Part shown: positions 2,946 through 58,377 of the stretch, piece after piece
Layout of the letters: each line of letters begins with the position of its first letter
How positions within the stretch are numbered: position 1 is the first letter of the stretch
Origin: Microcoleus sp. FACHB-68
GTDB lineage: Bacteria > Cyanobacteriota > Cyanobacteriia > Cyanobacteriales > Oscillatoriaceae
Assembly (NCBI RefSeq): GCF_014695715.1
Contig: NZ_JACJOT010000003.1
Location: 124,001-188,000 of the forward strand
Direction: 5' to 3'
DNA: 64,000 nucleotides
Position numbers and translations under genes: made by a program
Notes under the pieces: model-generated
The model's database searches: none
What the model was told of the DNA's origin: nothing
Seen by the model: only the letters and a program-made list of their open reading frames with translations

Positions 2946-2966
2946 TGTTAGCAGCCGGCAGCTAAG

Positions 2967-3016
2967 AAGAATTAAAAATTGAGATTGTTCTTAGTTTTTA
3001 ATTCTTCCTTTTTTTT
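2967..3016 (+). terminator. Rho-independent terminator of aroH
   Basis: A perfect 12-bp stem, AAGAATTAAAAA (2967-2978) pairing with TTTTTAATTCTT (2995-3006), is followed by eight Ts at 3009-3016. The stem is AT-rich, but its position 22 bp after the aroH stop and the T-run fit an intrinsic terminator. Confidence 0.7.
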
Positions 3017-3024
3017 CGTCAGGG

Positions 3025-3131
3025 GTGCATCTCATTTTTGCAAAAATATGGGAGTGGGAGCATCTTGCTCCCTGATCTGACAACACGCGGGCAAGATGCC
3101 GGCACTCCAAATTGACAAAAATGAGATGCAC
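3025..3131. repeat. 107-bp palindromic (MITE-like) element
   Basis: The ends are a perfect 16-bp inverted repeat, GTGCATCTCATTTTTG (3025-3040) and CAAAAATGAGATGCAC (3116-3131). Inside is a second, imperfect 18-bp arm pair (3051-3068 with 3091-3108, 15 of 18 matching), so nearly the whole element can fold as one hairpin. It has no coding capacity. It looks like a non-autonomous mobile element or a decayed IS end pair. No flanking direct repeat was obvious. Confidence 0.7.
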
Positions 3132-3312
3132 GCAACGAGCATTTTGAAAGTCAAGATGAGTTAGAAGATGTTTTGGCGACCAGATGTTTTGTTCTTCAAG
3201 CAATGAGTCAGGAAATCAAAAATATTACCAATTCTTACTGGTTTAACTCTGGTTGAACTGGGCTTGATTTGTTAGTAGTAGAACATAACCGGATTTCGTA
3301 TTACCCATTGAA

Positions 3313-5913
3313 TTAGCGGGCACTTTGATTTAAGATTGTTTCAATTTGATTCTGTACTTGTTCAAGTTCTCGACGTTTGTCAGCCAGCCGAACCTTTTCG
3401 GCCTCGCATTCTGCTTGATTTTGGCGATCGCGATTTTCCTGCTGTTCTAATAAATTCTCCCACAGCGAGATCGCTTTTGACATCACATCACTATTCGCAT
3501 CAGCGCGATCGGCAAATACTGCAATAATTCTTTGTTGTACCTTCTCAAAAATAGACTCTGCCGATTCGCCAAATTTCTCAAAGCCTAACTCACAAACTTT
3601 TTCCTTAATCTGAGCTTTAACAGCATCGCCATCTAAAAAACTCAAGCCCAAACCGCCACCAGCACCAGCCGCTAAGCCACCCAAAATAACTCCTATAAAA
3701 CCAAGTCCTGTAAAAAATAGCAACGCAGCACCAACTGCTGCACCAATTCCTAAACCCCCAAAAAATCCACCATCCTCAATCTCGCCAATTGATGAAGCTA
3801 TTCCGCTTCCACTGCTGCCAATTCCGCCTAAGCTACCTGCTGTTGCTAAGTTATTGAATTGAGCGACAAGGCTAGTGCTGAGTTGCTGGTCAAACTGTTG
3901 AAATTGTTGTCGTATTGCATAAATATCTTCACCGATTTGGCTGTCTAGCACTCCCATATTTTGTTTTAAAATAGACTCTACTTTTTGATTGCCCCAGTCA
4001 TCAATTTCTTTGGTGATGTCTCGTACAAATTTATCTGCATAATCTTTAGTCAACTTGTCTCGACTCATGATGTGTCCGTGTTGAGAAGTCCAGCGATGAC
4101 TTTTTGCCATCAGGCGTTCTCCCAACCCTTCCAACCATTCATTCCAAGATTCAATAACTTTGTCTGCCGATTGCTCCATCAGTTCCTCAGCTAACAATCT
4201 AATTTTTACATCGCGTCCGCTTGCTTCCGCCATCAGTTCAAATATTTTCTGTTGATCTCCTTGAGAAAGTGTCAATTTTCCTTGTAGCATTTCCCTATAT
4301 TGACTCAATTCATCGCAGCCAGTATTAATAATTTGCTTAATTCCGGCTGCGGATTGCTCAAGCGCGACCGCCCCCCGTTCAACTGTCAAAAACTGTTCGA
4401 GAGATTTGGTAAAATACTGAAAAGATTTCACATACTCATTTTCCGTTCCGTCCAAAATCGCCTCAAGTGCAGATTGAGCCGAAATAAAATGAATTCGGTT
4501 TTCACCAGCCATCAAATTTTGACTCTTAACAATCGTTTCTACCCTTTGTTTTACCTGTTTGCGGCTTTCTTCCCGACGCAGCAAATCGGCAAAATTAACT
4601 AAAACAAAAATACTCTTCACACCTTCATCATTTTTCCCAGGATTCAACTCTTTTTTCAAATACAACAGCAGTTCTCGCTCTTTTTCTGTCAAAGCATTTT
4701 GAGCATGAGTCAAAAAAATCACCGCATCAGTTGTTTTGAGAACCTGTTCCGTAACTAACGTGCGTTCCGCTTGTTCGTTCAATCCGGGAGAATCAATAAT
4801 TTCTACACCATTGCGGCACAATTCGAGATTCGGATGCTCGAAAATGATTTCTTTGATTTCTGAATTGACAATTTCATCTCCAAAAGAACCTAAAGCTGCT
4901 TCCTCAGAAATCGAGGCTTTATCTTTATATTGCTCAGGTGAAATCTCCTCTTCGCTTCCGTCTTTGTATTTGCAAATCACTCGCTGCTGCGGCCCGTATT
5001 TCAAAACCGTTACCGTACCGCTACAGGGAATATCCCGCACTGGTTGAATTTCTTCGCCCAGCAAAGCATTGAGTAAAGTAGATTTTCCTTTGCTAAACTC
5101 GCCGACAACAGCAACGCGAAACCGCTGAGATTGTAATTTACGAGATATCTTTGTTACTTCTTCTGTTAAATTAGGAGATAGCACGTTGCGCTCGCTTCCA
5201 TCTAGAAGAGTCAAATAAAGTTTGCCACAAACTGCATCCAATTGTTGTCTATACTCCTGAAACTTTTTCAACTCCTGATATGACGAGACTGAATGCTTTT
5301 GATTTTTTTGCTGTTTCGGTTTTGCTGGTAAATGTCCGATGATGTGACTTGCAGCACGGACAAGCAAAGAATCTAGAGATTGAAATTGGGCAGGATCGAG
5401 TAACGAGTGGACTTCTGCTAAAGCATCTGTATCGTTTATTGCTTGATTGCTAAAACTCGCTTCCAAAACACCCAAAAATCGCGCATCGATGCCGAGTCTG
5501 TTGGCGATGATTTTCAAATACTCTTTTTCGCGTTTATCTAGTGTCCCATCTGCTGCTGACATCTTATACCCAAAACTAATTAGCAGCAGTTTTTCCTCCT
5601 CGGAAAAGCACGATGTCAGCGCCAGCAACTCCGTCAATTTCTTGTAAACTTGCTGATCTCGCACGCCCTTAACCATCGCCATTACCAATTGGCGCAAACT
5701 GTTGTTAGCGGGGATGAGTTCCGTCAAAGTTGCCCGCAGTCGCTGCATTTCCTCAGCGTCAACCGTACCGTCGGCATAGATGACTCCCAACAACACCGTC
5801 ACCAGCCCTCCCAGAAAAAGCACAGGCGGAGTAATATCCTCTTTTCGTAGTTTTTGCCCTGTCAGCAGCGAAACAAGCTCAATTGTTTGGGGACTAATTA
5901 ACGAAGTATTCAT
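3313..5913 (-). CDS. TerB-domain dynamin-like GTPase
   Basis: Large membrane-remodelling-type GTPase of 866 residues. Residues ~30-160 form a TerB-like helical domain with two acidic loops, YADGTVDAEE (46-55) and SAADGTLDKRE (119-129). The GTPase follows: G1 GEFSKGKS (271-278), a G2 threonine in PCSGT (~300), G3 DSPG (374-377) and a G4 that reads NFAD (440-443) instead of NKxD, which may loosen guanine specificity. A helical stalk fills 510-690, then a glycine-rich hydrophobic stretch (~716-758) that could insert in membrane, then a C-terminal coiled coil (~820-866). Bacterial dynamin-like proteins act on membranes, and some work in phage defence. It is divergent from 5997-7583 with 83 bp between the starts. 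GCCGGC, frequent elsewhere, is absent here. The family is sure; the role is inferred. Confidence 0.88.
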   Translation of the reverse strand: MNTSLISPQTIELVSLLTGQKLRKEDITPPVLFLGGLVTVLLGVIYADGTVDAEEMQRLRATLTELIPANNSLRQLVMAMVKGVRDQQVYKKLTELLALTSCFSEEEKLLLISFGYKMSAADGTLDKREKEYLKIIANRLGIDARFLGVLEASFSNQAINDTDALAEVHSLLDPAQFQSLDSLLVRAASHIIGHLPAKPKQQKNQKHSVSSYQELKKFQEYRQQLDAVCGKLYLTLLDGSERNVLSPNLTEEVTKISRKLQSQRFRVAVVGEFSKGKSTLLNALLGEEIQPVRDIPCSGTVTVLKYGPQQRVICKYKDGSEEEISPEQYKDKASISEEAALGSFGDEIVNSEIKEIIFEHPNLELCRNGVEIIDSPGLNEQAERTLVTEQVLKTTDAVIFLTHAQNALTEKERELLLYLKKELNPGKNDEGVKSIFVLVNFADLLRREESRKQVKQRVETIVKSQNLMAGENRIHFISAQSALEAILDGTENEYVKSFQYFTKSLEQFLTVERGAVALEQSAAGIKQIINTGCDELSQYREMLQGKLTLSQGDQQKIFELMAEASGRDVKIRLLAEELMEQSADKVIESWNEWLEGLGERLMAKSHRWTSQHGHIMSRDKLTKDYADKFVRDITKEIDDWGNQKVESILKQNMGVLDSQIGEDIYAIRQQFQQFDQQLSTSLVAQFNNLATAGSLGGIGSSGSGIASSIGEIEDGGFFGGLGIGAAVGAALLFFTGLGFIGVILGGLAAGAGGGLGLSFLDGDAVKAQIKEKVCELGFEKFGESAESIFEKVQQRIIAVFADRADANSDVMSKAISLWENLLEQQENRDRQNQAECEAEKVRLADKRRELEQVQNQIETILNQSAR

Positions 5914-5996
5914 TTGCAGCGCCTAATAATATTTCTTTTATTAAATGGATCATAATAGATCAGTTATTGCGTTGGTTTCTACCAGGGTAAAAATTT
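5914..5996. promoter_or_regulatory. Divergent promoter region of the dynamin pair
   Basis: Only 83 bp separate the two divergent starts, so the promoters must be shared or overlapping. The centre contains GATCATAATAGATC, with a TATAAT-like CATAAT inside GATC-flanked dyad symmetry, which could serve a common regulator. This is suggestive only. Confidence 0.35.
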
Positions 5997-7583
5997 ATGA
6001 TGAACTTTGTATTTCCCTCAGCGGTACAGGCTGCGATCGAGGCGGGTAAGTACGCACAAGTGTTTACATCCGCTGGAGTGCCGATCGGCATGGCGAGGGA
6101 TGCAGCAACGGGACAGTTTGCTGCCCATGCCGTTGGCGCGGTTGTCAATAACAGCCCGCTATCGCCGTTAGTGTCTCCCGTGCAGCTTGCAATGGGCGGC
6201 TTGCAGATGTACCAAAACCACATGGGCTTTCAAGCCGTCCAAGCCAGTTTGGGCGTGCTGCAAGCGACAACAGCCGTCATTGGTGTGGGAGTTGCGGCTG
6301 GGGTAGCTTTGTCGGCGGTGAATTTGCACCAGACTTTGAAACTAAAAAAAGCAGTAGAGAGGCTGGAAGTTAAAGTAGAAAATGGTTTCATCAATTTAGA
6401 ACAACTTTTGAAAGGTCAAGGCGCGGAAATTAAACAATTAATTTCTGAAGTGGTTGCAGATATAAAATTTCAGAACCATCGCCTAGTCTTAGTGCGGGCT
6501 TACGGGTTATTTAATCAAGCAATTCAACGAATGCGCTCAGCTTTGCAACTGCAAGATATTAATCGCCGCAATGCTGAAATTGATGCTGCGCGGGGGATGC
6601 TGTTTGAAGCTTTAGCTGATTACAAAAATCCGCATTTATTAGAAGAAACTTGTGCAGCGGGACAGTTGCGGCGGTTAGAGTGCAGTTGGGCGATCGAGCA
6701 AAGTATTATCGGCACGTATCAGGTACAAAATGAATTTGGTGCTGCGGGCGATCGGCTTTCTCAACTTCAACAACAAATCCGTCAAGATGGCTTAACAGTA
6801 ATTGCTGGCTGTGACTCTGACGACGAACTAGATTTTCTGTTTCCTGAAATCACGCGAATTCACAATCACGATTTAGCTACATTAGACACTTGGCAAAATC
6901 AGATTGACTGGATAAAATCTTTGTCGCAAAGTGAGTTAAAGCAGTTACAGAGTGCTGATTTTAGTAAATCAGACTTAGCTGTTATTGGGGATAAAAATTC
7001 AGCCACAACAACTTTAGCGATACCGGATGAACAGTTATTTTATGAAAATTTGCGGCCTAAGTCTCATTTTTATTCTCTTCGGACTCAACTGGAATTAATG
7101 CTCGATCCGCAGCAGCGTCAAGAGTATGAAGATTATATCCTTGAGCAAGGGCCAATAGCGGGTCATAAAAGTTTAGTATCGTCGAACTTGGAAAAAGCGT
7201 CTAATTTGGCTGTTGCTAATCTTTTTTACTATTTCAAAGTCCGAGATGAATCGGAAGACGAATCAGAATTAGATTCTGATGCAACTACAACTGATACCAC
7301 TACTCCTAACGTTTTTGCTGAATCTTCCCCAAGTGGTAAGGTTAAGCAGCAAATTTATGAAAAAGTCAAAGCGATTGTTGCCAAGCAGCTAGAAGTTGAT
7401 GCAAGTGAAGTCACCATCAATGCTAATTTTGCCAATGATTTAGGAGCCGATTTTCTCGATGCAGTAGAGCTAATGATCGCAATCGAGGAGGAATTCGACA
7501 TTGAAATTCCCGCTGAAGATTCGGAAAACATAACAACAGTTCAACAGGCTGTTGATTACATTTACAAAAAAGTTGCTGATTAA
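5997..7583 (+). CDS. Membrane/helical protein with serine-less carrier-protein domain
   Basis: 528 residues, not a family I recognise as a whole. The N-terminal ~115 residues are hydrophobic, with a strong membrane-like segment around 84-110, then a charged coiled-coil stretch (112-155) and a helical middle to ~415. A low-complexity acidic/Thr linker (416-446) leads to a C-terminal acyl-carrier-protein fold (447-528) with the usual helix II pattern and [11 protein letters not shown]. In active carriers the motif is DSL, with phosphopantetheine on the serine. Here it reads GAD-Phe486-LD (codon TTT at 7452-7454), so it should not be modifiable. Its divergent neighbour is the TerB-dynamin GTPase, and a shared function is likely. 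The start is one of two adjacent ATGs; AGGG lies upstream. No GCCGGC signature was seen in the gene. Confidence 0.75.
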
Positions 7584-7694
7584 AAAGCAAAGACAGTAAC
7601 CCAGTTCAAATTCCTAGGCAGCCTATTTCTCGATCCCGATAACCCCGCCTCAGATGGATAGGGGCAATCTTCTTAGAAAGTTAGCGCCGGCATC

Positions 7695-7895
7695 CTACGG
7701 TGTACACACAAGTCTTCTCTACTTACGTTTGAGGCTAATAAGCCCCCTAAATCCCCCAATACTGGGGGACTTTAAATGCCGGTTTCCCTCAGAATTCTAC
7801 GGTGTACACACAAGTCTTCTCTACTTACGTTTGAGGTTGATCTGCCCCCTAAATCCCCCAATGCTGGGGGACTTTAAATGCCGGTTCCCTCCAGT
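7695..7895. repeat. Two tandem copies of a ~102-bp intergenic repeat
   Basis: The copies at 7695-7796 and 7797-~7895 share CTACGGTGTACACACAAGTC, the ACTTACGTTTGAGG core and a CCCCCAATrCTGGGGG hairpin, ending GACTTTAAATGCCGG. The hairpin arms are strongly self-complementary. No gene is present; an open frame across both copies follows the repeat, not codon logic. Confidence 0.8.
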
Positions 7896-8130
7896 AATGG
7901 AGTGCGGCGAAACAGCGATTTAGACTCTTGTTCCCCCCAGAATTGGGGGGCTAGGGGGGCGAAATAGCTGTACTTTTCTCGACTGAGGTTTATCTGCCCC
8001 CTAAATCCCCCAATACTGGGGGACTTTAAATGCCGGTTCTCTCCAGTATTGCAGTGCGGCGAAACAGCGATTTACACTCTTCCCCCAGTATTGGGGGGCT
8101 AGGGGGGCGATACAACTGTACTTTTCACGA
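7896..8130. repeat. Inverted copies of CCCCCAA..TTGGGGG repeat elements
   Basis: A second unit, starting AGTGCGGCGAAACAGCGATT and containing TTGGGGGGCTAGGGGGGCGA, occurs at about 7900-7985 and 8052-8131. Between them (7985-8048) is a third copy of the CCCCCTAAATCCCCC..GACTTTAAATGCCGG unit. The two unit types are partly reverse complements, so the block can form several long hairpins. It sits at the 3' ends of the two converging genes, 5997-7583 and crtR. Confidence 0.75.
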
Positions 8131-8156
8131 CTGATCCAGCCAGTGACAATTTTTTG

Positions 8157-52888: not shown

Positions 52889-54574
52889 CTAGTCTTGGGT
52901 GTCTTGATCACCGGCATTTGTGGGTGCGAATTTTACATCTGCCCAAGATAGCTGCTTCGGTTGGTTAGCGTCGCTTTCAACGGTGTTTTTTGCTTTGCCG
53001 GCACTTCCAGGATGGTCTTTTTGGGGATTGCCGGTTTGTTCGAGGGCTTGCCTGACTTGCTGGAGGCTTTCAGGGTCACTTTCTCTAACAGCTTGAACCG
53101 CAGTTTTAATGTTGCGCTGGTAGTGGGCGTTGTCGATGGCTTTTTCTTTGTCACGAGAACTGCTGTCGAAGCATTTTTCTAAATCTCCATAGATGCCGGT
53201 GCGACGTGGTTTTGTGAAATGCTGGCGTTCGGTATCCAGCAATCTTGCCATTAATTCCAGGTGCATTTCGTCTTCTTCACAGACTTCGGTAAGGACTGTC
53301 CATTCATCGCTGCCTAGCAGTTTTTTATCGACACCTTGACGGGTGTCTTCAAAGGGTGTGCCGGTGACTTCTTGATAAATTCTAGGCAAGCTATCATCAA
53401 ATTCGTGTTTTTCTTCTAACCAAATGCGGCGAATTTCGATTAATTCTTCTTGGGTAATTAAGGTGATATCGCGCATTTCTTCAGGGCCGGTTTTCCGAAC
53501 TTGGGTTTGCGCTTCTAATACTCGCCGCACCCAATGCTCACGCCAAAACTTAGTATAAGGCCCAGGAATTGGCTCAATAGAGATTTCTCCCTCTAAATTG
53601 CGCTCAAAAAGTTGTACCTGACCCCAGATACGGCGGAAGTCTCTCTTGTCGCGATCATTCTCAATATCTAATTCCTGACGAATATCTAATAGAGGCTGTA
53701 ACCACTCTTTTTCCTCATCATTCTGGATCATCGCCTGCATCGATTTATCTTGACTAACCATCGTGCAAACCCAGCAGCCAAAGCGAGAATCGCCACAGCT
53801 AGGGGTAGAAGTATCAACGACTAGAGGACATTCATTATCTGCTGTTGCACCTCGATACATAGCGAATAAGTCTTTATTGCTGTATCCCCAAGGGTTTTGC
53901 CATTGATTCAAATAAATCCACACATCATCATTGCGCCAGTCTTCAATAGGAGTATATGCAAGAGCGTTAACTAAACTCGATCTAGGACTGAGGCGATCAC
54001 GAACTCGTCCTTTTTCATGTTTTGCCATTACGGTAGCGCGTTTGTTACTTTCAGCTTTACGCATACCCAAGACAAGAATTACCTCTCCGCTCGCACGAAC
54101 CATATCACGAATGAAGCGGTTAGCAGGTTGTATTTTTAAGCGTTCTGTACACCAACGAAATCGCATACGAGGTGCTGGATATCCCTTCCCTATTAAGCAG
54201 ACCCAGAAACTTTCTTTGATTTCTGGATAGAGCAAGTGGGGTTGTATTGGCATTTCTTGTTCTTGAGCAGCAACCTTCATCTGTTTTAGAGAATTGTTAA
54301 CCCAAGCAGAAACTATGGGATTCTCTACCAGCGTATCTGTGGTAATAACATGAATTGTCTTGTTGCGCTTTTCTGAGGGGAGAGCAGATATTGCATTCCA
54401 AATTAACTGCACAACTGCCGTACTGTCTTTACCTCCCGAATATCCAATCACCCAAGGTATCTCATCTGAGCAGTAAAGTTCTTGAATTTCAGTAGTTAAA
54501 GATTGAATATCTTCAACTAGATCTGCAACTATACTTCTCTCTTGGTTTTTTCCTGATTCTTGTTCTCTAGCCAT
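52889..54574 (-). CDS. dndC: DNA sulfur modification protein DndC
   Basis: ~561 residues of the PAPS-reductase/ATP pyrophosphatase superfamily. It carries the sulfur from a cysteine desulfurase (DndA or IscS) to DNA. The PP-loop is SGGKDS (46-51), and a cysteine set (CGDSRFGCWVCTM with an upstream EC) fits the 4Fe-4S cluster of DndC. The tail after ~440 is polar and low in complexity. The longest frame begins at 54607, overlapping the HNH gene, but the ATG at 54574 (MAREQESGK) has GAGGG just upstream and leaves a normal 10-bp gap. dndA is absent from the window, so sulfur must come from an IscS elsewhere. Confidence 0.95.
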   Translation of the reverse strand: MAREQESGKNQERSIVADLVEDIQSLTTEIQELYCSDEIPWVIGYSGGKDSTAVVQLIWNAISALPSEKRNKTIHVITTDTLVENPIVSAWVNNSLKQMKVAAQEQEMPIQPHLLYPEIKESFWVCLIGKGYPAPRMRFRWCTERLKIQPANRFIRDMVRASGEVILVLGMRKAESNKRATVMAKHEKGRVRDRLSPRSSLVNALAYTPIEDWRNDDVWIYLNQWQNPWGYSNKDLFAMYRGATADNECPLVVDTSTPSCGDSRFGCWVCTMVSQDKSMQAMIQNDEEKEWLQPLLDIRQELDIENDRDKRDFRRIWGQVQLFERNLEGEISIEPIPGPYTKFWREHWVRRVLEAQTQVRKTGPEEMRDITLITQEELIEIRRIWLEEKHEFDDSLPRIYQEVTGTPFEDTRQGVDKKLLGSDEWTVLTEVCEEDEMHLELMARLLDTERQHFTKPRRTGIYGDLEKCFDSSSRDKEKAIDNAHYQRNIKTAVQAVRESDPESLQQVRQALEQTGNPQKDHPGSAGKAKNTVESDANQPKQLSWADVKFAPTNAGDQDTQD

Positions 54575-54584
54575 TTTTCCCTCT

Positions 54585-55532
54585 TTATTTACGCATTTGT
54601 TCCGCAACTTCCCTGCTTACTAGACGGGTTGAGCCTAGAGGATCGTGTTCCGAGCATATAACACGCAAATTTGTAGGATTCATAGCACCTTCAGGATGCT
54701 TATGAACTACTGTAAGTTGAGCATGATCTACTGTATTATCGCAGCCATTCTCGTACTCACAGCGTCTACGCACAGACAAAAGCCGAACAACCCAAAATGG
54801 ATGAGGTACGCTTTGTTTCCCAAGTTTCGGATGCTCGACTGTACGCGGCTTGATTGCAACGTCATATACAGATATACGATCACTTTTGTGAGAATTGCAC
54901 CATCCACAGGCTAAACGAAGGTTATCTTCCTCTTTGCCACCTTTTGAAAAAGGTATAGCGTGATCAACTTCAACGCAAATATCACGTTGAGACAAACCAT
55001 GCAAGGTCATGTAATCAATAAACTGAAATAGCGGCGTTTCTGTATAGTTCTCGTATCCTAAAAACTTATTCTCGGCCCACTTTGTAAATTTATATCCACA
55101 AATCCAACAACGGGGTTCTGGGCCGTAAATATCCCATAAAAGCTTTTTATCCTCTAGGCTAATAAAACTGCGCTTCCTCGGACTTCGGCGCTGGACTTCT
55201 TTATCTATCAATCTTGAGATATACCTTGTAAGCGTTTTGCGCTCCTCCTCAGAAATTCCAGAAAAAATGATAGGAACTGTTTTTTGAACAGCCACCAAAA
55301 TATGACCATAGCTTTGAGTAGAGTCAGTAAATTTTTCTGGATCACAGATCGATTCAATAAACCATTGTGTCCAAAGTATGTGTATGTCTGCTCTAAGTAG
55401 AGAACCCCGACCACTCATAATAAAGTCAGGAACTCTCTGATTAGCAATATTGCTAAGAATCTGTATGTCCCAACAGGCTTCCAGCTTATCTGCCGTAGTG
55501 TTAAAGAAAGAATGAATTTCTTCAAATTCCAT
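54585..55532 (-). CDS. HNH endonuclease within the dnd operon
   Basis: 315 residues. The central HNH nuclease has CWICGYKF, EVDHAIPFSKGG and NLRLACGWCNSHKSDR, giving the His-Asn-His core plus two zinc CxxC pairs. A second Cys/His cluster follows (RRCEYENGCDN, VVHKHPEGAMNPTNLRVICS). The N-terminal ~130 residues are helical and unrecognised. It sits between the DGQHR gene and dndC with gaps of 17 and 10 bp, so it is in the modification operon. In Dnd systems, phosphorothioate-dependent restriction is usually by DndFGH, but several HNH proteins also sense phosphorothioate. It may be the restriction arm here. The gene is AT-rich and lacks GCCGGC. Confidence 0.87.
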   Translation of the reverse strand: MEFEEIHSFFNTTADKLEACWDIQILSNIANQRVPDFIMSGRGSLLRADIHILWTQWFIESICDPEKFTDSTQSYGHILVAVQKTVPIIFSGISEEERKTLTRYISRLIDKEVQRRSPRKRSFISLEDKKLLWDIYGPEPRCWICGYKFTKWAENKFLGYENYTETPLFQFIDYMTLHGLSQRDICVEVDHAIPFSKGGKEEDNLRLACGWCNSHKSDRISVYDVAIKPRTVEHPKLGKQSVPHPFWVVRLLSVRRRCEYENGCDNTVDHAQLTVVHKHPEGAMNPTNLRVICSEHDPLGSTRLVSREVAEQMRK

Positions 55533-55549
55533 GAATCATAACAAGCTAC

Positions 55550-57286
55550 TTAGTTTAGGGGAATCCGATACTGGCTTTCTTTAGGGAGTTTCTGCGGATC
55601 TTTTCTATACTGTACCCACTCTGTTGACCATCTTTTACGAATACCGGGCATATCTTTTTTTACTCCGTGCAGATTCCAATCTCGATAGAAGTAATCTTTA
55701 TTCACACCTTTCAGCCAGTCATCAACAAGTAAAGAAACTTCCTGTATACTATCTATTCCTTTACCACGTCCACAGAGATATTGAAAGAAATCTGCTGCAA
55801 GAATTGTTAGAGATGTTTTATTAAAAATATTTGATTTTTTAGGATTACCCCAGTAATGCCATGCTTGATCGTTATCCTTATCTGCTAGGTTGTCGCGAAC
55901 TTTACTCCAAAATGAAATAAACACATCTCGCCAAGGGCCATCAAGCTTGTGCCAATATTCAAAAGCATCTTTAGATTCTTCAGTATCCCATACAAGTTTT
56001 GATTCCGACAAATAATCACGTTTCCACTTATCGGCATAATCAACAGTTTCATGAAAAAGTTTACCTCCTTTCAAATCACGGAAGATTGTAACTATGGATG
56101 CAAGAACATTCCACTTAAGACGGTCTTTAGTATCAGAGGTCATTCCTCTTTCAACTAAATTGTAGAAAGGACTGGCTGGATATCTTGCAAGAAATGTCAC
56201 AGCTCGTGATTCTTCTAGCTTAATACCAGCATTTTCAAGTCGATCTGCCACTCTCTCTAGTTCTTCATTAGAAAGGCTAGTGGATACAATGGTTCCAAGA
56301 AGTGCAGGTTTGATAGGAGTTGCTTTCTGATTTACAACAACAAACTGAAAAACTTGCTCGGCTGGATCAGTATTCATGAGCAGTGAAATTGGAAGCTTGC
56401 GAGCCGCTTCAGTTTCAATCTTTCGTTGAGCTTCTCCTGGATCAATTCCCTCATGCAGGATGGCTTCCTCTATGTAATCTTTGTAACGATCTTCTCTCAC
56501 CAATTCTTTAGCTGATGAAATAGCTGCACGCAATCTGTGTTGTCCATCAACAACCACTATTGGACGCAGAAAGGAAATTAGTGCATTTTTAGAATAGTCA
56601 AGAAACTTATCTCCCTTAAAGGTGTCATTTATTTCCTCTAAAACAGAAATATAAGCTGCAACCTCTTTCCAAAAATCTTCAATATGAGATTCATCACTAA
56701 CTACTACTTCCATATCCTCGTCGCTGCCTGAATTGTCATTGTCAGCGATTTCCTGCTCCTCAGATGATTCGCTTAGATTTTCCTGAACACTATCTTTAAT
56801 TTCCGCACGTTGCTTTAGTTCCCTAATGAAGCTATCGGGAACTTGGTTTTCAGCAAGTCCGGGAACCCGGCGCTCTAAATTTGTTTTTACCCTTTTTAGG
56901 AGTTCTAGTAAACTGAGTTCTTCTAGCGATTCAGTAATTAGGGTTAAAAATCCATGTTGAATAGCATCACTAGAACTATTTTCATCTTCACTCAATTCAA
57001 ATTTCACATTTGCCTGATCGGGTTGGCGCAATGCACAAAGCAAAGGATTTTGGATTATATTCTTTTCGTTTCGATAAAAATCAGTAATTTCCTTAATACG
57101 TTTCCTATTCTCTTCTCGCTGGAAACCTGTAGTTTCTTGAGTTCCAATTTTCTTTTTTTGGGGTACTCCTGCCCACATATCAATCTCTATTGCAGAAGCA
57201 GCAAAAAGCACTAGCCAGTCACCAGAACCAGTTTGTCGAATACGAACTGCTTTGTACTTAAACTCGTGCTGTTGTACTTGACTCAT
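55550..57286 (-). CDS. DGQHR-domain protein, DndB-related
   Basis: 578 residues with a DGQHR motif at 247-251 (VVVDGQHRLRAAI), the hallmark of the DndB-related family. Residues ~165-205 are an acidic, Ser-rich insert absent from DndB itself. After the motif come LPISLLMNTDPAEQVFQFVV and NQKATPIKPALLGTI, a conserved block of the family. AGGAGG precedes the ATG by a normal spacing. It lies 35 bp after dndB and 17 bp before the HNH gene. Close linkage with a nuclease suggests it pairs with the HNH protein, perhaps as a DNA-sensing partner, but the biochemical role of DGQHR proteins other than DndB is not established. Confidence 0.85.
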   Translation of the reverse strand: MSQVQQHEFKYKAVRIRQTGSGDWLVLFAASAIEIDMWAGVPQKKKIGTQETTGFQREENRKRIKEITDFYRNEKNIIQNPLLCALRQPDQANVKFELSEDENSSSDAIQHGFLTLITESLEELSLLELLKRVKTNLERRVPGLAENQVPDSFIRELKQRAEIKDSVQENLSESSEEQEIADNDNSGSDEDMEVVVSDESHIEDFWKEVAAYISVLEEINDTFKGDKFLDYSKNALISFLRPIVVVDGQHRLRAAISSAKELVREDRYKDYIEEAILHEGIDPGEAQRKIETEAARKLPISLLMNTDPAEQVFQFVVVNQKATPIKPALLGTIVSTSLSNEELERVADRLENAGIKLEESRAVTFLARYPASPFYNLVERGMTSDTKDRLKWNVLASIVTIFRDLKGGKLFHETVDYADKWKRDYLSESKLVWDTEESKDAFEYWHKLDGPWRDVFISFWSKVRDNLADKDNDQAWHYWGNPKKSNIFNKTSLTILAADFFQYLCGRGKGIDSIQEVSLLVDDWLKGVNKDYFYRDWNLHGVKKDMPGIRKRWSTEWVQYRKDPQKLPKESQYRIPLN

Positions 57287-57321
57287 TTTTTGCTTCCTCC
57301 TGAAATACGAACTTTTTTGCC

Positions 57322-58377
57322 TTACTCTGCTAGTGTAACAGGCATCCCCAAACGCGCCTTAATATAAGCACTCATCCAACGAACACTAGCACGAGAGTGA
57401 GAAACCCCACCTTTAGATAAAATTCGCCCTTCCCAATCAGGATTGGAACGTGACCAATCTATTTGTGCTAGTCCTGCCAAATGTTTCTCCCAATTATCCG
57501 GGAAAAGTGACATCAAAACACTGCCGGCATCTCCCAACGCCACCAAAGCAGTCGGATGAGTGTGGATATAATCCCGCCGCACCTCACCGGCATTGATCTT
57601 GCGCTGCAAAACCAACTCCCAATCTGGGAGATAACTGCTGACAGCATTCCAGTAACTGGCAGCCAGTTCAATTTGCCGGCGCAACTCAGTGTCCAGATCA
57701 TTCGCCAGCAGGGCAAGAGTAGCATTATAAATGCTCGTGAGCGTAAATAGCTTACCCGATCGGGCCGGCAGTGTACTGTGTTCAGTATCCGTCAGGGTTC
57801 GCAAAACCTTGACTTGCTTAATCACTTCTCTCACCAATTCAGCATTTTGATCGCGCTGATCATAAAGAATATTTAACGAAGGATCGGCAGGAACTGCATA
57901 GCGGTTGAGATCGCTAAATATCTGTTGAGAACGCTTTAACCCAATATCTAGAAAAAACACCACTGCGACTGTTTCATATCCAAGTTCAGGATTTTCTTTC
58001 AAAGCTAATTCAAATGCCGCGCGCCGGTGATTTCCATCATTAATTGTAAATTTCGCATCCATTGGCACTCTCAATCGCCCCATTTTCCGCGCTTCTGCCT
58101 CTGATCCTATCGGTTCAAAGGTGATATCCGCGTCAATTGAAGCCGTAATTGCCGAGAACGTATAGTTCTTGGGATTGTTAAGAATATATTTGCCAATTTC
58201 CGCTACACGGCTGCTATTCAGCGTGCGCTGTGCCCGCATTTCTGGGGGAATTTCTTCATCTTCAACCGCAAATAGTTTGGGAATGAGTCGCACGGGACAC
58301 ATGGAAACGTAGTATTCGCGCCCTGACTGGATTCCTCGAATTACAGGCAAAATGTATTCAAAAGAAGGTGCCGGCAT
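57322..58377 (-). CDS. dndB: DNA sulfur modification protein DndB
   Basis: 351 residues of the DGQHR/ParB-like DndB family. DndB represses or tunes the dnd operon and affects which sites are sulfurated. The motif reads DGNHR (114-118) in TINDGNHRRAAFE, and the rest matches DndB: YILPVIRGIQSGREYYVSMC, TLNSSRVAEIGKYILNN and QQIFSDLNRYAVPADPSL. It is the first gene of the minus-strand dnd operon, so autoregulation is likely. No strong Shine-Dalgarno is visible. A possible but weak promoter (TTGACG about 50 bp upstream) is noted without confidence. Confidence 0.93.
   Translation of the reverse strand: MPAPSFEYILPVIRGIQSGREYYVSMCPVRLIPKLFAVEDEEIPPEMRAQRTLNSSRVAEIGKYILNNPKNYTFSAITASIDADITFEPIGSEAEARKMGRLRVPMDAKFTINDGNHRRAAFELALKENPELGYETVAVVFFLDIGLKRSQQIFSDLNRYAVPADPSLNILYDQRDQNAELVREVIKQVKVLRTLTDTEHSTLPARSGKLFTLTSIYNATLALLANDLDTELRRQIELAASYWNAVSSYLPDWELVLQRKINAGEVRRDYIHTHPTALVALGDAGSVLMSLFPDNWEKHLAGLAQIDWSRSNPDWEGRILSKGGVSHSRASVRWMSAYIKARLGMPVTLAE

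Follow-up and report, generated by a model that had tools for sequence, protein, structure and literature searches.

A TerB-dynamin gene and its conserved divergent neighbour, a candidate membrane partner gene, in Microcoleus sp. FACHB-68 and other cyanobacteria

Bacterial dynamins are reported to remodel membranes, and many of them are encoded as tandem pairs (parts of PMC4159319, PMC9950537 and PMC5827413). The roles and partners of many bacterial dynamins are unclear. The best comparison for the locus described here is Nostoc punctiforme BDLP1 (NosDLP; PDB 2j68, 2j69, 2w6d), a bacterial dynamin-like protein (BDLP) of the "Tandem B" clade, whose genes adjoin a second BDLP gene (PMC5827413, in part). 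Eleos is likewise a two-component dynamin system, and its two components, LeoA and LeoBC, are both dynamin-like (PMC4159319, in part). Other cyanobacterial BDLP contexts (KGK, HSR1, chaperone, Tandem A) also place a BDLP beside a conserved neighbour gene. In PMC5827413, the main-text section on clades distinguishes six of them, with no mention of TerB or of a neighbour like the one reported here; because that survey was based on PF00350, forms lacking the GTPase would have escaped it. We analysed a 64,000-nucleotide stretch of contig NZ_JACJOT010000003.1 of Microcoleus sp. FACHB-68 (the window), which contains two divergent genes, termed A and B. A encodes a TerB domain joined to a BDLP1-type dynamin, and B encodes a consistently linked and apparently unrelated putative membrane partner. 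The initial annotation had recognised two divergent open reading frames (ORFs) 83 bp apart (5914-5996), and this arrangement was confirmed. The features of A are as follows.

3313..5913, minus strand: gene A, TerB + BDLP1-type dynamin-like protein, 866 aa (ORF, Pfam and BDLP1 profile match)
5479..5805, minus strand: TerB domain of A, residues 37-145 (Pfam PF05099, E 1.1e-11)
4663..5115, minus strand: dynamin GTPase domain of A, residues 267-417 (Pfam PF00350, Dynamin_N, E 2.3e-27)
3316..4440, minus strand: stalk region of A, approximately residues 492-866, common to all partner types (profile matches; BDLP1 alignment)
3619..3801, minus strand: hydrophobic Gly-rich paddle of A, approximately residues 705-765, interrupting the stalk region (hydropathy)
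5914..5996, no strand: 83-bp intergenic region between the divergent starts of A and B

The P-loop of A (GEFSKGKS) and its DxPG motif (DSPGL) are those of a dynamin GTPase. A profile of A and its relatives matched nearly the full length of Nostoc BDLP1 (2j68) with E 5.3e-44 over profile positions 206-841, an alignment that, by sequence profile and hydropathy, spans the GTPase, the stalk and the Gly-rich hydrophobic stretch. The latter has a Kyte-Doolittle peak of 2.3, and we take it to be the equivalent of the membrane paddle of BDLP1. The TerB domain scored 45.4 bits (curated PF05099 cut-off 24.4) and shares with its family two acidic DG loops (YADGTVDAEE and SAADGTLDKRE); it differs in its context, since Pfam recognised no other ter gene among the neighbouring ORFs scanned. 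PF05099, PF00350 and hydropathy thus agree with the earlier description of a TerB-dynamin GTPase fusion with a hydrophobic Gly-rich insert. Judged by its domains, A in its window form is a complete BDLP1-type dynamin. Free-standing TerB proteins 41-47% identical to the TerB of A were seen at L085:4687-5283, L087:4385-4981 and L086:4639-5769; they are 198 aa long, apart from one 376-aa double TerB.

A resembles BDLP1 over the GTPase, stalk and paddle, but carries an N-terminal TerB domain and adjoins B instead of a second BDLP. Assignment to a Tandem A/Tandem B pair was rejected: no second BDLP is adjacent, B has no dynamin match, and the other side of A holds a 126-aa ORF and an S49 peptidase. 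A also matches the PADLOC families LeoA (E 2.9e-22) and LeoBC (E 1.6e-14). Eleos membership was ruled out as well, because only A matches and B is unlike any recognisable dynamin. No description of the A-B pair was found among the titles and starts of abstracts listed in searches of open PMC text (subscription papers, supplements and preprints lay outside the search), and a term search of the main text of two surveys of multicellular-bacterial conflict systems found neither TerB nor dynamin in the parts covered. In A, a known family takes on a new architecture; the stalk pairs without a GTPase, described below, extend it in an unusual way.

To define the distribution of the pair, a genome collection was scanned with one short peptide pattern. 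It yielded 128 B loci; the best 80 of the 128 were kept, and all 80 had cyanobacterial titles. Together with 21 loci from whole genomes these gave 101 loci, or 95 after removal of 6 duplicates. Of 60 relatives, 17 carried a B core; across the phylum, 36 of 386 genomes did (E 1e-10), some of them with fragments only. A full-length B core with at least 1.5 kb of upstream sequence was available at 75 of the 95 distinct loci, and 74 of these 75 had a divergent A-type ORF beside B, i.e., on the opposite strand within 3.5 kb. Most gaps were below 200 bp, and the A-B intergenic region in relatives was mostly about 60-200 bp long. At the remaining locus (L136), A lies 665 bp upstream of B on the same strand. 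A was split or shortened at 6 of the 74 loci (L066, L075, L105, L113, L142, L147). Among the truncated B loci with room for a partner, 6 of 11 had no A, indicating that A and B tend to decay together. In the reverse test, which scored two candidates per genome, 17 of 18 strong A matches (>600 bits, 386 cyanobacterial genomes) adjoined B; the eighteenth (G084) is at a contig end, as is the B of the same genome. One genome (G208) has A and B co-directional, 3 bp apart by the first start codon and ~50 bp apart by the aligned start. Distances between A stalks correlated with those between B cores (Spearman 0.73, n=74, 0/999 permutations as high), a correlation that would also follow from linked inheritance alone. 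The conserved divergent linkage proposed in the initial annotation was borne out in both directions, and homologues of the two genes are clearly anything but rarely adjacent. These comparisons of gene order strongly support a real A-B pairing with conserved linkage.

When 1505 flanking ORFs were clustered, no gene family was associated with the pair at all loci. The largest cluster, probably a generic one, covered 19 loci, with a median distance of ~2 kb. The possibility that B is part of a larger operon was thus unsupported, as no flanking family was constant across loci. A kinase-type ORF cluster occurs at 10 loci (L068, L076, L077, L102, L104, L127, L160, L162-L164) at a median of 395 bp from the pair; the one member scanned (L077:10843-13404) is a protein kinase with WD40 repeats. 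A small hydrophobic Gly-rich protein of 112-119 aa is encoded a median of 146 bp from the pair at six loci (L089:5071-5430, L091, L095, L096, L098, L100), and the one scanned, that of L089, had no Pfam match.

The form of A varied. At the 74 loci, 41 A proteins were of the TerB+GTPase+stalk form, 3 GTPase+stalk, 8 TerB+stalk and 22 stalk only; L160, first scored as TerB+stalk on the strength of a separate TerB ORF 2 kb away, was recounted as stalk only, which changes the last two counts to 7 and 23. Over 200 residues of the chain separate GTPase and paddle, yet the two are jointly present or absent. At a Kyte-Doolittle threshold of >1.6, a hydrophobic paddle was called in 47 of 47 distinct GTPase-bearing A proteins and in none of 30 GTPase-less ones (with duplicates, 50/50 vs. 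0/31 stalk ORFs). A few TerB+stalk forms retain a shortened, less hydrophobic remnant of the paddle. On a quick tree, the GTPase state changed at least 5 times. Where the GTPase is present with a full stalk, its motifs are well kept: GxxxxGKS and D[ST]PG were each found in 46 of 47 ORFs. Of 77 stalk ORFs, 27 lack TerB; one of these, that of L128, belongs to a broken gene whose next ORF carries the domain. Strict tests found both TerB DG motifs in 28/50 proteins and the stalk SG motif in 40/77, so neither motif is a firm signature. By these counts, the constants of the system are the B core and the A stalk, whereas TerB, GTPase and the acyl carrier protein (ACP) domain of B are optional. The simplest inference from this pattern is that the stalk binds B, and that the GTPase together with the paddle makes up a single unit for membrane remodelling, which can be discarded.

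B was divided into the following parts.

5997..7583, plus strand: gene B, partner protein, 528 aa (ORF)
5997..7259, plus strand: B core, residues 1-421, a cyanobacterial family (sequence searches)
6234..6332, plus strand: single hydrophobic Gly/Ala-rich segment of B, approximately residues 80-112 (hydropathy)
6333..6476, plus strand: heptad-like, probable coiled-coil stretch of B, approximately residues 113-160 (inspection)
7344..7574, plus strand: ACP-like tail of B, residues 450-526 (PF00550; NCBIfam acyl carrier protein)
7452..7454, plus strand: Phe486 codon at the phosphopantetheine serine position (alignment with serine-bearing tails)

Most relatives use the second ATG of the window ORF as the start of B. 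The B core had no significant match in Pfam, NCBIfam, PADLOC or PHROGs; its best PDB match was UspA1, over profile positions 120-160 (E 0.0026). Profile comparison revealed no homology between B and A (probability 0.3%). The hydrophobic segment was kept (peak >1.3) in 79 of 81 full-length cores, the exceptions being L142 and L144, and it persists whichever form A takes. The coiled coil is followed by further helical-looking sequence (by eye) and then by the C-terminal acyl-carrier domain, so that B has the membrane/coiled-coil front and C-terminal ACP fold with which it was annotated. The N-terminal 121 residues of B did not occur in another protein context in 60 relatives; all 21 matches were B loci. 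B is an unannotated family. The last 61 residues of the B core have a match in a solitary 65-aa ORF (L082:7201-7398, L083:7339-7536, L084:6517-6714), whose gene context is shared by three members of the genus (G000, G001, G002); this ORF may be what is left of an older B, or else encode a small protein.

The tail of B matched PF00550 (residues 455-522, E 1.4e-12) and NCBIfam acyl carrier protein (E 1.8e-28). It belongs with the type II acyl carrier protein (AcpP) family, but differs in its fusion to B and, in the window, in the loss of the phosphopantetheine serine of the DSL motif. This position is occupied by Phe486 (motif GADFLD), and the window ACP therefore cannot be an ordinary carrier. 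A carrier function in the window strain was ruled out on the same ground. The tail was found at only 14 of 95 distinct B loci (14/101 with duplicates). The "carrier-protein fusion" of the initial annotation thus stands as regards the domain, but not as a carrier here or as a general property of B. The serine was kept in 11 of the 14 tails and is missing in the window, L088 and L092; carrier chemistry of a dynamin-linked ACP has been lost in three sampled proteins. G002, of the same genus, has a B core 95% identical to that of the window and a stop after residue 423. Downstream of the stop, linker DNA is still recognisable and is followed by sequence no longer alignable with the ACP, indicating that the domain was lost in G002. 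In pairs with the window, the ratio of nonsynonymous to synonymous substitution rates (dN/dS; rough values, from short regions) was 0.38-0.84 for the ACP and 0.14-0.33 for the core. Among the serine-bearing L095, L096 and L099 of the same clade, rough values were 0.28-0.41 and 0.17-0.34, respectively, and in serine-bearing pairs overall 0.23-0.41 vs. 0.11-0.34. Because ACP values exceed core values in serine-bearing pairs also, the rise in the window is only suggestive. A single origin of the ACP fusion as one clade was not rejected (p-AU 0.43). All 13 ACP-bearing B proteins with a resolved partner adjoin a GTPase-bearing A; the fourteenth (L122) is at a contig end. This association was not significant after allowing for relatedness. 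Four loci have an alternative C-terminal tail of about 280-400 aa (L090:5998-8469, L092:5998-8511, L094:6001-8103, L097:1055-3526), with a second Gly-rich hydrophobic stretch in three. L092 carries both the ACP and the alternative tail. No significant Pfam match was obtained for the alternative tail in the three proteins scanned (L090, L092, L094).

The reading we favour, with a probability of about 0.45, is that A and B form a two-component membrane module: B anchors in the membrane and binds the stalk of A, and A remodels the membrane at that place. B would be held in the membrane by its single hydrophobic segment, and its conserved core would bind the helical stalk of A. In the window form, B would place A and GTP would drive assembly; the paddle would then dip into the bilayer, enabling A to tether, bend or fuse membrane, possibly in order to repair or maintain the cell membrane or the thylakoid membrane. 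TerB would be an add-on, probably for metal or signal input, and the ACP another, probably a link to fatty-acid synthesis; the serine-less ACP of the window could be a binding surface at most. In many relatives, A without GTPase and paddle would persist as a stalk protein beside B. The domains and the gene linkage, the combined lack of GTPase and paddle, the missing serine and the position between housekeeping genes can be read from the sequence, whereas we infer physical contact of A with B, membrane insertion of B, and the remodelling activity and its purpose. Several points weigh against this reading. The GTPase-less pairs rule out GTP-driven remodelling by A as the function common to the whole family. 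Patchiness (36/386), transfer and decay accord with a dispensable or conflict function no worse than with upkeep of membranes. In one genome (G232), a fragment of A sits at the end of a contig and no B was found in the assembly, and open PMC text yielded no experiment on any A-B family member. A wider proposal seems possible but less likely than not: the dynamin stalk could be a stand-alone partner-binding scaffold, the conserved machine could consist of the stalk and the new membrane family B, GTPase with paddle could be a power module that can be taken out and is lost as a whole, and TerB, ACP, serine-less ACP and other tails could be exchangeable sensors or adaptors. A occurs naturally as a series of forms (TerB+GTPase+stalk, GTPase+stalk, TerB+stalk, stalk alone) in which partner binding can be told apart from GTP-driven remodelling, and this makes the role of the dynamin stalk testable.

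The main rival, and a live one, is an anti-phage or abortive-infection module in which B is a membrane-perturbing effector, the A stalk its sensor or restraint, and GTPase and TerB the triggers; we consider it possible but rather unlikely. The pair is inserted between housekeeping genes, at a site that in same-genus G001 holds a NACHT-HEAT gene, and bacterial NACHT proteins defend against phage (PMC12169576, in part). The patchy distribution, truncated copies and variable tails are also consistent with defence, as are the match of A to PADLOC LeoA and the phage resistance conferred by B. subtilis DynA (PMC8844932, in part). Also in favour, the one further long stretch of the window without GCCGGC has a weakly DndB-like ORF and a PAPS-reductase-domain ORF. 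However, B itself has no PADLOC match. Flanks were scanned with PADLOC and Pfam for 132 of 286 ORFs, without a control set; 82 PADLOC families matched at least one ORF, but none matched more than 4 of the 132 (E 1e-10), so that the pair was not seen in obvious defence islands. Nor was a B core found in viral contigs (44 candidate stretches, none a B relative), plasmids (searched with the L101 core) or phages, whose matches to B cover the ACP part only. The initial annotation is partly supported overall, and the membrane-stress and defence roles it offered stand as hypotheses.

A lipid-supply module, with the ACP tail recruiting fatty-acid synthesis to the place in the membrane where A and B act, seems improbable. 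Most ACP tails keep the serine, the ACP-bearing B proteins with resolved partners all adjoin GTPase-bearing A, and the serine-bearing tails of L095, L096 and L099 are under some constraint (pairwise dN/dS 0.28-0.41). On the other hand, 81 of 95 distinct B loci have no ACP tail, the serine is gone in the window, L088 and L092, G002 lost the whole domain, and the association with GTPase loses significance once relatedness is considered; moreover, lipid supply cannot account for the window's own protein. We give equally little credence to the idea that the pair is selfish or decaying cargo which does nothing for the host and persists through repeated transfer. The evidence of transfer, the truncated copies, the split partners and the 65-aa B relic elsewhere in the window genome would fit this idea, but core dN/dS was 0.11-0.34 in the 14 pairs tested and GTPase motifs were intact in 46/47 proteins. 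Because no gene family accompanies the pair throughout, there is no evident carrier element, although no search was aimed at mobility genes.

The origin of the pair in the window genome was examined through sequence composition and the insertion site. The initial annotation had pointed to the missing GCCGGC signature and suggested transfer. The hexamer occurs 136 times in the window and not once in the pair, where 9.1 occurrences are expected at the window rate; all GCCGGC-free 4271-bp stretches of the window fall in 3099-7685 and 52998-57522. Around homologous pairs in four Microcoleus- or Tychonema-type loci, 7-9 kb of flank contain only 0-2 copies of GCCGGC, against 23 copies in 12 kb beside the G002 pair. 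The interval concerned is as follows.

2946..8156, no strand: interval holding the pair, from the chorismate mutase-like gene to the convergent desaturase gene (44-217 bp in five relatives)

The 126-aa ORF beside A is presumably a chorismate mutase, and the S49 peptidase ORF lies on the same side; the convergent desaturase gene we take to be crtR-like. The ORFs of the desaturase and the S49 peptidase were among those scanned with Pfam. Thirteen genomes were searched for both flanking genes. These were 44-217 bp apart in five (G004, G005, G007, G009, G010; two by coordinates only), on different contigs in G011 and G012, separated by the A-B pair in G000 (the window genome) and G002, and separated by other DNA in G001, G003, G006 and G008. 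The G001 site holds a 1356-aa NACHT-HEAT protein, and the A-B pair of that genome is elsewhere. The G003 site holds a kinase/AAA/cyclase protein, and those of G006 and G008 hold short ORFs that, by eye, we take to be pentapeptide-like and Uma2-like. Window B was 86% identical to the B of G008, which is from another family, and 61% identical to that of same-genus G001; for the desaturase the order was reversed (71% and 96%, respectively). The suggested transfer is supported by the insertion-site comparison and these identities, and the pair was probably acquired horizontally. On a straightforward reading of the site comparison, the insertion would predate the G000/G002 split. The chorismate mutase-desaturase junction (L197, L198, L199, L200) resembles an insertion hotspot in the group. 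C-rich repeats (CCCCCTAAATCCCCCAATACTGGGGGACTTTAAATGCCGG-like) were seen by eye between B and the desaturase gene (window 7700-8130); it is possible that they aid recombination at the site.

At the second GCCGGC-free stretch, ORF 55550-57286 had a weak DndB match (E 2.7e-5, 23.9 bits, cut-off 29.1), and ORF 52889-54607 has a PAPS-reductase domain (E 4.5e-11). The ORFs of 52889-57522 may represent a phosphorothioation-type (Dnd-like) module, perhaps also acquired.

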